A DNA stretch of 64,000 nt, from positions 74,152 to 138,151 of the forward strand of contig NZ_FQXG01000008.1 of the NCBI RefSeq assembly GCF_900129905.1. The letters run 5' to 3'. Shown piece by piece: positions 12,667 to 32,612 of the stretch; within the stretch, counting starts at the first letter, position 1, and every line of letters starts with the position of its first letter. The translations under genes and the position numbers were made by a program. Source of the stretch: Ferrimonas marina (GTDB lineage Bacteria; Pseudomonadota; Gammaproteobacteria; Enterobacterales; Shewanellaceae). The notes under the pieces are model-generated. The model worked only from the letters and a program-made list of their open reading frames with translations, made no database searches and was not told the DNA's origin.

Positions 12667-13917
12667 ATGAAAATGAAAAAGACCCTGTTGAGCCTGGCTG
12701 CCGCTGCTGCCCTGGTGGGCGCGCCGGTACAGGCATTGGCCAGCGAAGGCCAGTGTGTGGTGCAGGAGCGTGAAGGCCGTGCTGCTTCCGAGCGTGTCGG
12801 TCGTAGCATCCAGCGTGCCTTCGATCTGTACGACGAAGAGAAGGTGGACGAGGCGATCGAAGTCCTGCTGGGCCTGAGCCCGCGCAGCGAGTACGACAAG
12901 GCCTACGTTAACCGCTTCATCGCTAACCTGGCTGCGGCTCAAGAGGAGCGTCAGGAGCTGGCCCAGGAGCGCATCAACGCGGCCCTGGCCGCCAACATCC
13001 TGAGCAACCAGGACCACGGTCAGCTGCTGCGCCTGAAAGGCGACCTGGCAGTTCAGAACGAGCAGTATGAAGTGTCCCTGGCCGCTTTCCAGGAGTGGAT
13101 GGCGTTCACCTGTGACGAGAACGACATGGTCTACCTGCGTATGGCCGTGGCGAGCTCTGAGCTGAAGCAGTTCGATGACGTGATCCGTTACGCCGATGAT
13201 GCCCTGCGCACCAAAGGCGAGCCGGATCGCAACATCTACCTGCTGAAGATGGGTGCCTACTACGAGCAGAAGAAGTTCGCTGAAGCCGCGGGTGAGCTGG
13301 AGCAGTTGCTGGTTCACTTCCCGGACAACGCCAAACTGTGGGTTCAGCTGGCTCAGCTGTACCTGCTGGCCGAGGACAACCAGCGTGCGCTCTACACCCT
13401 GGACATGGCGTTCCGCAATGACCTGCTGGACAGCGGCAGCGAACTGCGCCTGCTGTCTCAGCTGATGCTGCAGCGCGAACTGCCCTACAGCTCTGCGGTT
13501 ATCCAGGAGTTTGCGCTTGAGCGTGAACTGCTGGAGCGGGACGAAGACGTGCTGCGCGGTATCGGCAGCGCCTACTTCCAGGCGCGGGAAACCGCCCTGG
13601 CTATCCAGTACTTTGGTGAGACCGCGGAGCTCAGTGGCCTGAGCCGCGACTACCGTCGTACCGCAAACCTGCTGGTTCAGGAAGAGCGCTTCGACGAAGC
13701 CAAGGTCTACCTGGTGAAGGCACTGGAAGGCAAAGAGCTGGAGAACGAAGGTGCTATCCGCCTGCAGCTGGCCCAGACCCACTTCTTCCTCGACGAATAT
13801 GTTGAAGCGAAGAAGCAGGCCAAGCTAGCGATGAAGGAGGAGCGTCTCAAGAGCAGCGTCGAAGGCTGGCTGTCCTACATCGAGGATGTAGCCAAGCGTC
13901 GCGGCATTGAGATCTGA
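12667..13917 (+). CDS. TPR-repeat periplasmic protein of the TonB2 operon
   Basis: This 416-residue exported protein is the last gene of the operon, 15 bp after tonB, with a good ribosome site (AGGGAG). A signal peptide (MKMKKTLLSLAAAAALVGAP, cleavage near ALA-SE) is followed by repeated helix pairs of tetratricopeptide type (for example GDLAVQNEQYEVSLAAFQEW, MGAYYEQKKFAEAAGELEQL, LYLLAEDNQRALYTLDMAF). TPR proteins at this operon position are known in vibrio and Shewanella TonB2 clusters. They are thought to act as scaffolds in the periplasm, but the partner here is not identifiable. A strong terminator follows directly. Confidence 0.85.
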   Translation: MKMKKTLLSLAAAAALVGAPVQALASEGQCVVQEREGRAASERVGRSIQRAFDLYDEEKVDEAIEVLLGLSPRSEYDKAYVNRFIANLAAAQEERQELAQERINAALAANILSNQDHGQLLRLKGDLAVQNEQYEVSLAAFQEWMAFTCDENDMVYLRMAVASSELKQFDDVIRYADDALRTKGEPDRNIYLLKMGAYYEQKKFAEAAGELEQLLVHFPDNAKLWVQLAQLYLLAEDNQRALYTLDMAFRNDLLDSGSELRLLSQLMLQRELPYSSAVIQEFALERELLERDEDVLRGIGSAYFQARETALAIQYFGETAELSGLSRDYRRTANLLVQEERFDEAKVYLVKALEGKELENEGAIRLQLAQTHFFLDEYVEAKKQAKLAMKEERLKSSVEGWLSYIEDVAKRRGIEI

Positions 13918-13931
13918 TCCCTTTGCATAGA

Positions 13932-13965
13932 AAAACGGCTTCCCAAGGGAAGCCGTTTTTTTTGG
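13932..13965 (+). terminator. Rho-independent terminator of the TonB2 operon
   Basis: A long perfect stem (13932-13944 with 13947-13959) closes over AA and continues into a run of eight T residues on the plus strand, 15 bp after the TPR gene stop. Confidence 0.93.
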
Positions 13966-14052
13966 CTTCGCCGGAATTATCTGTTCTTCCACAGAGGCTA
14001 ATGGCTTCTGTCCCATTTGCTGGCAAAAGCTTTGCCGGGTTGCCGGCAGCAA

Positions 14053-14241
14053 CCAAAGGGGCGTTCCGCCCCCTTGGAACCCCCGCCTGCCTCCGGTCGT
14101 CGCTAACCCTCACTCCCGTGCTCTAAGTCTGCGGCTCTGGCTTGAGTCGACATCCCTGTCTCCGCAAGCCACTCGGGCCATCCTGGCCCTCAACCTGGCT
14201 TTAGAGCACTTCGTTCGAGCGACTCCAAGTCGGCGAAGTGC
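14053..14241 (+). repeat. Structured dispersed repeat, copy 1
   Basis: This is one of two collinear copies flanking the 5'-nucleotidase gene. It starts with a hairpin (14053-14062 with 14068-14077, loop GTTCC). A 9-bp outer stem (14118-14126 with 14201-14209) encloses a 7-bp inner stem (14138-14144 with 14165-14171) with a 20-nt loop beginning AGTCGAC, and a GGGCCA/TGGCCC hairpin (14175-14189). A further hairpin (14220-14224 with 14228-14232) and an 8-bp stem (14206-14213 with 14234-14241) follow; the last competes with the outer stem. Open frames across it are not credible genes. The rest of the 13966-14425 interval shows nothing else. Confidence 0.8.
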
Positions 14242-14425
14242 TGAGGGGGCACGAAGAGTTGTTTCCAATTAGAGGTCGTATGAAGTCCGAGACCTACTTT
14301 AAGCAGAGCCGTTTTTTTTGCCTGACACTGTTGCGCAACTGTTACCAAACCCTTGCTGGTGTGGAGAATTTCGCCTTCTGGCCTCGGTCGGAAGGGGCGA
14401 CTGTGGTACCCTGCGACCGCCCAAA

Positions 14426-16735
14426 ATGATGAACAACGACATGATGAAGCCCAGACACTTTTCCGCCGGGGCCATTGCCCTCACCCTGGCGTTGACCGGG
14501 TGTGGCGAACAGGCCAAACCCGAGTTTCTCAGCCATCGTCCCGCTGAGCCTAAGGCCACTGAAGCAGTGCAAGCCGAGCCGGTAGAGCAGGCCGAGGCGC
14601 AGGCGTCCGCCGAGCCCGAGCCGATGGCTGAAACCATCGAGCCGGAAACGGTTGAGGTCGCTGCAGAGCCGACCGAGCCAGAGGTGAAGGCTGAGCCGAT
14701 CGCCGAGGCAACCGTGGCGGTGCCGACTCAGGCAGATCCGATTCAAGCGGCCCCGGCTCAGGTAGCGCCGATTCAGGCAGCGACCACTGAGCAGTACCCC
14801 GGTGAGGTACGCTTTTCCGAGCCGGCCCAGGCCCATTTCAGCCTGAGTGTCGCCCACATCAACGACACCCACTCCAACTTTGACCCGGTGGCGGGCAGCC
14901 TGAGCAGCGATGCCATCGGCACTGACCCGGTGTACACCCGCTTTGGCGGTCACCCGCGTCTGCTGACCCAGGTCAATGCCATCAAGGCGGCGGCCGAGCA
15001 GCACGACCAGGGCCTGCTGTTCCTGCACGGCGGCGACGCCTGGCAGGGCACCGGCTACTTCAAGCTTAATAACGGCAAGATGAACGCCGACATCCTCAGC
15101 CGTATGGGGCTGGACGCCATGGCGGTGGGCAACCATGAGTTTGACTTGAACAACGCCACCCTGGCGCAGTTCATCGACAACGTGAACTTCCCGATGCTGG
15201 GCGCCAACATGGACGTCAGTGCCGATCCGGATCTGAAGGACAGCAGCAACCTGTTCCCCTACGTGGTGTATGCCTTTGAGGGTAACCAAAAGACCCTGAT
15301 CACTGACACCGATGCGCTGCCTCAGGACAAGCAACTGGTGGCGGTACTGGGTCTGGTACTGGAAGACATGCCCAGCATCTCCCCCCACGTAGGTGAGGTG
15401 ACCTTCTCCGGCGAGATCGAGACCGCACAAGCGGTGGTGGAGGAGATCCAGGCGCTGGGGATCAACACCATTGTCGCCGTGACCCACCTGGGTCTGGCCC
15501 GGGATCAGGCGATCGCCCGCAACGTGGAGGGGATCGATGCCATTGTCGGTGGCCACTCCCACTCCCTGCTGGGGGATTTCTCCAATATCGGTTGGGGCGA
15601 TGGTGGCCAGTATGCCGAGGTGATCACCGGCCCTAATGGCCACCAGACCTGCGTGGTCCAGGCCGGGCAATACGCCCAGGCGGTGGGCCATGCGCAGCTG
15701 GGCTTTGATGAAAACGGCGCCCTGACCCAATGCATCGGTGGCAACACCCTGCTCAGTGACGACCGCTTCTTCGCTGATGGCCAGCACCAGCAAGCCCTGA
15801 CCGGTGAGGCTCTGGATAGCGTCAACGCTTTTGTTGAGGCGGAGCCGAACATCGCTAAGGTGGCCGAGGACGCCGAACTGCGTGCGCACATCGACCAGGC
15901 CTACCGGCCGGAGCTGACCGCCGCCTATGGCGAGATCATCGGTCAGATCCCGGAGAGCCTGGTGCACGAACGCCGTCCCCACGACGGTGGTGTTGACCAG
16001 CACGGCTCCCGCGTCGCCCCGCTGGTGGCAGAGTCTCAACTGTATTTTGCCAACCTGCCGGAAGTGCAGGAGGCCAGCGGCATGACCGTGGACTTTGCCC
16101 TGGTGGGTGCCGGTGGGATCCGCACCAGCCTGGATGAAGGGGTCTACTACGAGGGTTCGGCCTCGATGGAACTGTTGCCGTTCTCCAACTACCTGTCGAT
16201 CCTCAAGGTGCCGGGCTCGGCCATCATCGAGATGATCGAGAACACCGTTACCAAATCCCTGGCGGATGATGCCCACAAGGGCAAGTTCCCCTATGGCGGC
16301 GGCCTGCGTTACCACTTCGTTGAGACCAGCGCCCAAGTTGAGGGTGAGCTGGTGAGTGTCGAGGTACGTCGCGAGGGTCAATATGAGGCAAAGTGGGAAG
16401 CGCTGGATCCCCGTGCTCACTACACCATCGTTACCACCAACTACAACGCCAACGGCAACGACGACTGGGATGCTCTGTTCCGGGCGCAGTCCCAATGGGT
16501 GGAGCGGATGGACATCGCCTTCCTCAATGATCAGGTCAAGGCCTACCCGGTAAGCAAGGTGGTGCGTCAGGGTGACGGCTATGCGGCGGTGTACCCCAAT
16601 GGTCAGCCCCAGTGTGAGCTGGTGGAGATCCGCTGCAGCTCCGATGCCCAGGCCTTTATTGAGTACATCCGCCAGGTGCACCCGACGGTGACCGAGCTTT
16701 CAACCCCGGCGGTGACGCTGGAGCTTAATCGCTAA
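14426..16735 (+). CDS. 5'-nucleotidase family lipoprotein (UshA/NadN-like)
   Basis: This is a metal-dependent 5'-nucleotidase of about 769 residues. Four in-frame ATGs (14426, 14429, 14441, 14444) precede a lipoprotein signal with lipobox LTGC; none has a clear ribosome site. A long Glu/Pro/Ala-rich linker (about residues 30-135, repeated AEP and QAAP units) tethers the enzyme. The metallophosphatase domain follows with HINDTHSNF, GGDAWQGTGYF, VGNHEFDLNN and GGHSHSLLG, then the C-terminal substrate domain with VGAGGIRTSLDEG and PFSNYL. Relatives cleave AMP, UDP-sugars or NAD. It stands alone between two copies of the structured repeat, and would complement the phosphodiesterases upstream. Confidence 0.88.
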   Translation: MMNNDMMKPRHFSAGAIALTLALTGCGEQAKPEFLSHRPAEPKATEAVQAEPVEQAEAQASAEPEPMAETIEPETVEVAAEPTEPEVKAEPIAEATVAVPTQADPIQAAPAQVAPIQAATTEQYPGEVRFSEPAQAHFSLSVAHINDTHSNFDPVAGSLSSDAIGTDPVYTRFGGHPRLLTQVNAIKAAAEQHDQGLLFLHGGDAWQGTGYFKLNNGKMNADILSRMGLDAMAVGNHEFDLNNATLAQFIDNVNFPMLGANMDVSADPDLKDSSNLFPYVVYAFEGNQKTLITDTDALPQDKQLVAVLGLVLEDMPSISPHVGEVTFSGEIETAQAVVEEIQALGINTIVAVTHLGLARDQAIARNVEGIDAIVGGHSHSLLGDFSNIGWGDGGQYAEVITGPNGHQTCVVQAGQYAQAVGHAQLGFDENGALTQCIGGNTLLSDDRFFADGQHQQALTGEALDSVNAFVEAEPNIAKVAEDAELRAHIDQAYRPELTAAYGEIIGQIPESLVHERRPHDGGVDQHGSRVAPLVAESQLYFANLPEVQEASGMTVDFALVGAGGIRTSLDEGVYYEGSASMELLPFSNYLSILKVPGSAIIEMIENTVTKSLADDAHKGKFPYGGGLRYHFVETSAQVEGELVSVEVRREGQYEAKWEALDPRAHYTIVTTNYNANGNDDWDALFRAQSQWVERMDIAFLNDQVKAYPVSKVVRQGDGYAAVYPNGQPQCELVEIRCSSDAQAFIEYIRQVHPTVTELSTPAVTLELNR

Positions 16736-16755
16736 GGCAACAAAGACTAAACAAA

Positions 16756-16784
16756 AGGCCCGCAGATGCGGGTCTTTCTTTTTT
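16756..16784 (+). terminator. Rho-independent terminator of the 5'-nucleotidase gene
   Basis: The stem 16756-16764 with 16767-16775 (one G-U pair) is followed by TTTCTTTTTT. Confidence 0.85.
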
Positions 16785-16865
16785 CTCGGTTTTATTCGAG
16801 TTTGATTGTTATCAATTAATCTAAATACGGTTTTTTCCTGAACTTTGTCGCGTTGGCGACGGCAA

Positions 16866-17047
16866 CCAAAGGGGCTAATCGCCCCCTTGGAACCCCCGTT
16901 GCCTCCTATCGGTGCTGATTCCTCGCTCTAGCGGTATCGACTAGCGGCACAGACCAGAGTCGACGTCCCTGTCTCCGCTGGTCATTCGGGCCTTCCTGGC
17001 CCTCAGCCTTGCCGATACCGCTCACGCTCGGGCACCTCAAAGTCGGC
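16866..17047 (+). repeat. Structured dispersed repeat, copy 2
   Basis: This copy is collinear with copy 1, without indels in the aligned core. Its 5' hairpin (16866-16875 with 16881-16890) has identical arms but a different loop (TAATC). The outer stem (16930-16939 with 17013-17022, 10 bp) and inner stem (16952-16957 with 16978-16983, 6 bp) differ in sequence from copy 1 on both arms yet remain complementary. The 20-nt loop differs by one base, and the GGGCC/GGCCC hairpin (16988-17002) and an AAGTCGGC block near 17040-17047 are kept. It lies between the 5'-nucleotidase terminator and the PP-loop ATPase gene. Confidence 0.8.
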
Positions 17048-17211
17048 TTAAGAGCCGGGTCATCACCCTCAACGGGGTCTCCCCAATCTCTATTCTTTGG
17101 CCGCTTAGCTTCCGGCTAATGCTGCAAGATACTTACCACTCGTTGCTTGCCTTTGCTGCTCAGGCCGGTAGGCTCATGGCCATCTTTTGTGGGCGTGAAC
17201 AAGGCGTTAGC

Positions 17212-32392: not shown

Positions 32393-32612
32393 GATGTTTC
32401 CTTTTGGTTGGTACGCAACCCGGCGGTCTTCGTGAGATCCGTGGCTTTCCGTCCTGGCCTCGCAACCAGTTTGGCGGGTTAGTCCTTTCACTCCCCATGT
32501 TAAAAAAGGCCTAGCTCGCGGTAATCGCCCAAAGGTATGAAATTTAAACTAATTCTTCATACTTTGGGGTGAGGTAACTCGCAGGTGACTGGGTATGAAC
32601 AGGAGATTAGGG

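Follow-up and report, generated by a model that had tools for sequence, protein, structure and literature searches.

The TwoAYGGAY RNA (Rfam family RF01731, clan CL00106) is a computationally predicted motif. On motif grounds it has also been predicted to bind the global regulator CsrA, which the source offers as a testable hypothesis (PMC4333381). A selected CsrA site, RUACARGGAUGU, is described in a review together with an ANGGAN hexaloop and the bridging of sites 10-63 nucleotides (nt) apart (PMC7652899). Decoy RNAs such as CsrB/CsrC and RsmX/Y/Z and, on the side of mobile DNA, miniature elements of the ISL3 type constitute the other systems with which we compare a repeated element of Ferrimonas marina. 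Two copies of this element lie within the window, i.e., the whole 64-kb stretch analyzed (positions 74,152 to 138,151 of contig NZ_FQXG01000008.1); all coordinates are window positions, and the RNA strand corresponds to the window's minus strand. Taken as a whole, the observations are probably best explained by a short non-autonomous element that carries a structured minus-strand RNA bound by CsrA and whose approximately 50 copies serve as a decoy.

A preliminary description made from the sequence alone had placed two structured elements around a 5'-nucleotidase gene, and both were found there: the window has exactly two occurrences of the pattern CCAAAGGGGC-N(2-8)-GCCCC (14053 and 16866), and 100 shuffled versions have none. 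The alignment of copy 1 with copy 2, said to be without indels, is nearly gapless with a few 1-nt gaps, i.e., the original wording was slightly too strong. In agreement with that description, the outer and the inner stem, and likewise the GGGCC hairpin, are paired in both copies with both arms altered, the conserved 20-nt stretch differs by a single base, and the copies lie about 90 nt beyond terminator hairpins (13936-13955 and 16754-16777, respectively). What had been taken for a plain AGTCGAC loop turns out, when read on the minus strand, to consist of a CGGA/GACU internal loop and the short hairpin GAC-AGGGAT-GTC. With regard to coding overlap, judged by the list of open reading frames alone, an 88-aa frame (13847-14113) touches 25 core bases of copy 1, while no frame of at least 80 aa touches copy 2.

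The RNA core of copy 1 extends from 14089 to 14236 (minus strand; 138.0 bits, E 1.2e-30 with covariance model R2, whose training set includes this copy) and that of copy 2 from 16901 to 17049 (minus strand; 148.7 bits, E 3.5e-33, this copy also being in the training set). In copy 1, a closing stem of GUCGC (14219-14223) and GCGAC (14099-14103), corresponding to helix 2 with GC/TA/AT covariation, spans 14099-14223. It encloses GGA hairpin 1 (14175-14189, GGGCC-AGGAU-GGCCC, based on covariation and loop counts) and hairpin 2 (14139-14170), in which a GGCUUG stem, the CGGA/GACU internal loop and GAC-AGGGAU-GUC follow each other. Two further minus-strand hairpins lie on the 3' side, CCAAGGGGGC...GCCCCUUUGG at 14053-14077, recognized from the copy alignment and the pattern count, and the last one, UUGCUGCCGGCAACCCGGCAAAG at 14030-14052, recognized from covariation; its pairs -17/-6 and -14/-9 rank among the top covarying pairs. 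The corresponding minus-strand parts of copy 2 are hairpin 1 (16988-17002, GGGCC-AGGAA-GGCCC), hairpin 2 (16952-16983, GACCAG stem, CGGA/GACU internal loop, GAC-AGGGAC-GUC) and two 3' hairpins (16844-16890).

Selection on the fold, which the preliminary description had proposed for either RNA or extruded DNA, is strongly supported. Covariation was measured by pair counts with shuffled and slid-partner controls, instead of by R-scape, and exceeded both. In 30 copies from the source genome, 17 of 32 predicted pairs are altered on both sides, and 28 of 32 are so altered in alignment A2, which comprises 84 matches from 66 loci in 8 genomes, insertion-bearing and some near-identical copies having been left out. 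Among 83 distinct copies from these 8 genomes, 94.2% of cells are paired (shuffled, 74.9%; slid partners, 26.9-37.6%) and 457 cells are compensatory, i.e., changed on both sides (shuffled, 128; slid partners, at most 84), counts that lean toward the structure because A2 was fitted to it. Helix 4 is paired in 57.6% of cells. Conservation of the roughly 150-nt RNA core across the genus is shown to be structural. RNA is favored over extruded DNA because of the minus-strand folding energy, an excess of G-U pairs and the A-N-GGA-N loops. Folding energy is lower for the minus strand in 30 of 30 source-genome copies, while the two strands are barely distinguished by copy 1 taken singly (z -3.0 minus, -2.6 plus). 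In A2, the ratio of minus-strand G-U to A-C is 63:27, and the 35 matches from other genera give 37:10; these counts come from related copies and are thus not independent. The plus-strand fold, i.e., the strand used in the preliminary description, is disfavored by energy and wobble counts alike.

The two copies are members of a large family. BLAST with copy 1 yielded 44 pieces in the source genome, and covariance model R1, built from 30 of 40 copies of this genome with 10 insertion-bearing copies excluded, gave 51 matches at E 0.1, some of them overlapping or split. At E 0.001, with up to 53 candidates scored per genome, R1 matched 8 of 58 genomes of the family, all from the same genus (8 of its 14 genomes), with 50 matches in the source genome, 38 in G009, 21 in G010, 13 in G006, 11 in G013, nine in G003, six in G002 and three in G004; the further copies anticipated by the preliminary description thus exist. 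In G001, two weak BLAST pieces were not confirmed by R1, and the plasmid and phage records searched contained no match to copy 1. Identity of copies between genomes is as low as 42%. In a tree, a single group unites the sampled copies of G002 and another those of G006, while those of G009, G010 and G013 fall into two groups per genome, so that the element has multiplied within lineages; 27 copies of the source genome are spread over 11 groups, and copies of G003 and G004 show no grouping. Since copies are dispersed beside many genes, the flanking of the 5'-nucleotidase gene, correct as to position, looks incidental.

The preliminary description could not name a known family, and at curated Rfam cut-offs nothing was found at either window element. 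The element is shown to be a divergent relative of the TwoAYGGAY RNA and no strict member by the Rfam rule. TwoAYGGAY likewise features two neighboring A-N-GGA-N-like hairpins, which agree with those of the element in order and strand, and model positions 43-114 align. Unlike TwoAYGGAY, the genus element has extra conserved outer stems and 3' hairpins, is a high-copy repeat and scores 22.5 (window minus strand) to 25.2 bits against a cut-off of 43; as the genus copies stay below this cut-off, they represent a divergent branch. Searched at E 0.01 across 345 genomes of the order, model R2, built from A2 and hence from copies of this genus alone, matched 30, which belong to 8 of the 108 genera, the source genome and genus included (9 candidates scored per genome; about three genomes expected by chance; 27 genomes at E of at most 0.001). 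TwoAYGGAY exceeded its cut-off at four of seven loci in a first set of R2-matched loci and at 9 of 20 in a second set, two places being common to both; in the second set scores reach 73.3 bits and 9 of 11 TwoAYGGAY matches coincide with R2 matches. The genera with such above-cut-off matches at R2 loci are g2, g15 and g57, the tested loci of g38 (30.0 to 41.4 bits) and g18 staying below. One g57 locus resembles Pantoea records (about 71% match), and one g38 locus an Aeromonas caviae record (92% match). In the literature examined, with most subscription papers outside its scope, TwoAYGGAY RNAs are nowhere described as mobile or as dispersed repeats, nor as high-copy repeats at terminators.

The A and the GGA of the loops are mostly kept, in contrast to the variable stems. 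Hairpin 1 is present in 79 and hairpin 2 in 82 of 84 genus copies, and both GGA hairpins occur together in 77 of these 84 copies and, outside the genus, in 33 of 35 matches. For the A-N-G-G-A-N positions of hairpin 2, entropies are 0.09, 1.35, 0, 0, 0.09 and 1.48 bits, and its stem reaches up to 1.9; the stems of sister species are different, with loop sequences such as AGGGAA, ATGGAT, AAGGAT or AGGGAG. The distance from GGA to GGA is 26-28 nt in 81 of 84 genus copies and 28-30 nt in 35 of 35 matches from other genera, within the bridging range published for CsrA. By their sequence, the loops are predicted CsrA/RsmA sites of the published kind, and a CsrA gene is present in 14 of 14 genomes of the genus. 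Like CsrB/CsrC and RsmX/Y/Z, the element has GGA in hairpin loops at a spacing suited to a CsrA dimer, and unlike these RNAs it is scattered in many copies, each with two sites, and has no recognizable promoter. Matches to the CsrB model lie at other loci in 11 of 11 tested genomes, above the cut-off in three genomes, none of them from this genus; the match in the source genome reaches 29.2 bits (cut-off 71).

In part of the copies, the RNA lies between ends of the ISL3 type, the accompanying direct repeats falling within the A/T tract of an intrinsic terminator. The complete short element of copy 1 (13964-14310, minus strand, 347 bp, RNA inside) begins with GGCTTCGCC... and ends with ...CAGAGCC, and is flanked by 13-nt direct repeats GCCGTTTTTTTTG as read from the sequence (11 nt in the automatic direct-repeat test). 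The left repeat (13952-13964) is the T tract of the terminator belonging to the upstream gene, and the right one occupies 14308-14320. Related ends are present in other copies of the source genome, one subtype of which has different ends (GGCTCTGTCC). Most copies of G013 are delimited by GGTTCTTCGCGGAT.../...GCGATGAACC, the left end also being given as GGTTCTTCGC, and complete ISL3 copies (1292 bp), whose ends are similar, by GGTTCTTCGCACATTAGCGGG.../...GCGATGAACC. In G011, two complete ISL3 copies carry ATAAAAAA as target repeat, with a terminator hairpin past the right end, while a third in G012 (L158) has the repeat TTTTTTAT and no terminator hairpin in the flank shown; two of the three complete copies examined are thus followed by such a hairpin.

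Direct repeats of at least 8 nt are located at the ends of 7 of 33 source-genome copies (window copy 1, L025, L028, L029, L048, L056 and L078); anywhere in the surroundings they occur in 13 of 33, six of these away from the ends, and in 123 of 1056 mismatched pairs. Among nine G013 copies, repeats of at least 8 nt were found in six, at the ends in four, a fifth (L134) having an altered end. Since mismatched pairs in this genome give 24 of 72, A-tract repeats alone are weak evidence there. In G006, a different element, delimited by CCACCTCCTATGGAGGTGG and CCACCTGCTATGCAGGTGG, contains the RNA, and the same core in a differently ended element is seen in G003 and in L128 of G013 as well. ISL3-type miniature elements resemble part of the copies in their related ends, A/T-rich direct repeats and terminator at the right end. 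In contrast to them, the element contains a conserved RNA and no transposase, has other ends in one source-genome subtype and shares its RNA with a palindromic-ended element. At eight ISL3 loci no RNA core was detected, with one match at chance level (12.7 bits, E 0.13).

With regard to internal build and arrangement, a repeat module of about 80 nt (GCGCAGTCCCTGCTTC...) is inserted within the RNA core at L034, L037, L039, L049, L051 and L053, and nested modules that lie on the opposite (plus) strand and contain hairpins like GTGCAGGGATGCAC occur at L031, L033, L036, L039, L041, L052, L053 and L055. The sequence TGCANGGATGCA is found 13 times in the source genome, compared with 0 occurrences of a reversed control. 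Plus-strand GGA modules were considered as TwoAYGGAY candidates and rejected, there being no Rfam match to this family at E 1 in eight loci, six of them module-bearing. Three tandem copies with a 258-bp period lie in G002 (L155, 1022-1685), about 380 bases from an RNase P RNA gene, and two element subtypes in opposite orientations are a few hundred bases apart at L142, L147 and L148 of G009.

The neighborhood was surveyed for 33 source-genome copies of the 51 matches. A terminator-like hairpin follows 40-230 nt on the RNA 3' side in 29 of 33, each preceded by an A tract, with A plus T tracts at the hairpin in 20 copies; on the 5' side a terminator hairpin lies at 40-330 nt in 7 of 33. The copies of this genome mostly have one orientation relative to the terminator. 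At copy 1, a bidirectional terminator-like hairpin (13931-13963; A tract, stem 13936-13955, T tract) follows the TPR gene and could also end the minus-strand RNA; it was not listed by a consensus scan. The terminator of the 5'-nucleotidase gene (16754-16777) is terminator-like on the minus strand too (16772-16759). By a crude choice of the longest reading frame, which errs, e.g., at copy 1, 26 of 33 copies have a convergent gene next on the 3' side, and by similarly crude choice the 5'-side gene is co-directional in 18 of 33; both window copies have a divergent gene on the 5' side.

A plausible mechanism can be sketched on this basis. The element would land beside an intrinsic terminator, and its RNA would end at the terminator so captured. 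Once transcribed, the minus-strand RNA would offer both loops to CsrA, one dimer bridging the two, and the approximately 50 copies would jointly serve as a decoy for CsrA; both the transcription and the binding by CsrA are steps that we infer. CsrA-type hairpins in about 50 copies may thus amount to a decoy for this regulator that is scattered over the genome.

A number of observations weigh against this explanation. Neither strand shows promoter enrichment, the mean best sigma-70 score of 49 copies being 5.15 for the RNA strand and 5.11 for the opposite one, compared with 5.78 after shuffling, and a scan beside the window copies returned no sigma-70-like promoter. Hairpin 1 has the full ANGGA in just 27 of 84 copies, most source-genome copies having the shorter AGGAU, and loop conservation is somewhat inflated since the search models already contain GGA, a bias that does not explain the varying N positions and the changing stems. 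None of three TwoAYGGAY matches in the source genome, the best at 25.2 bits, exceeds the cut-off of 43, and 16 loci of relatives yielded no match to this family at E 0.5. Clean end repeats occur in a minority of source-genome copies, with mismatched pairs reaching the frequency given above; this genome contains no ISL3 transposase match, and of the six among 14 genus genomes that do, just G002 has the RNA also. The host terminator in G006 is on the RNA 5' side, i.e., the opposite way round. Finally, given the CsrB-type matches elsewhere, another decoy may exist.

The strongest rival holds that inserted copies become 3' ends of neighboring transcripts and that CsrA acts on those messages in cis rather than being titrated. 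The lack of an own promoter would fit, as would the co-directional 5' genes and the seven copies with a 5'-side terminator hairpin, but 18 of 33 is near chance and the 5' genes at both window copies are divergent, and we regard this alternative as rather improbable. More doubtful still is a fold that matters at the level of DNA, with extruded or single-strand hairpins serving transposition or replication in the manner of repetitive extragenic palindromic (REP) sequences and the RNA having no function. Such hairpins would account for the high copy number, the mostly single orientation at terminators, the end repeats in part of the copies and, again, the missing promoter, and the pair changes are mainly from Watson-Crick to Watson-Crick with few G-U steps. 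They would not, however, predict A-N-GGA-N loops that are kept while stems change; energy and wobble asymmetry point to one strand as RNA, and the same core is found in the differently ended elements of G006, G003 and L128 of G013.

An RNA that aids the spread or tolerance of its own element, e.g., by placing a transposase supplied in trans under CsrA-dependent control, appears least probable of all. Multiplication within lineages (G002, G006, G009, G010 and G013) and ISL3 matches in 6 of 14 genus genomes agree with such selfish use, whereas the genomes richest in copies (the source genome, G009, G010, G006 and G013) are without ISL3 match and the eight ISL3 loci mentioned above lack the RNA core. 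The decoy explanation is the one retained here, under which a mobile element could titrate a global regulator. A generalization in which TwoAYGGAY-class RNAs are widespread mobile CsrA decoys that borrow terminators and set free CsrA by their copy number is tentative and, in our judgment, rather doubtful; if true, a selfish repeat would tune a global regulator. Approximately 50 copies placed at terminators make this genus a source of many natural variants for testing the predicted link between TwoAYGGAY and CsrA. They also illustrate that a curated model can miss a branch in which stems diverge and loops and outer frame persist.

Riboswitches were encountered in addition. At L034, one of the module-bearing loci, a purine riboswitch is located at 151-250 on the plus strand (66.5 bits, cut-off 37). 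The sole match to Rfam at curated cut-offs within the window is a c-di-GMP-I riboswitch at 32411-32485 on the minus strand (47.2 bits, cut-off 35).

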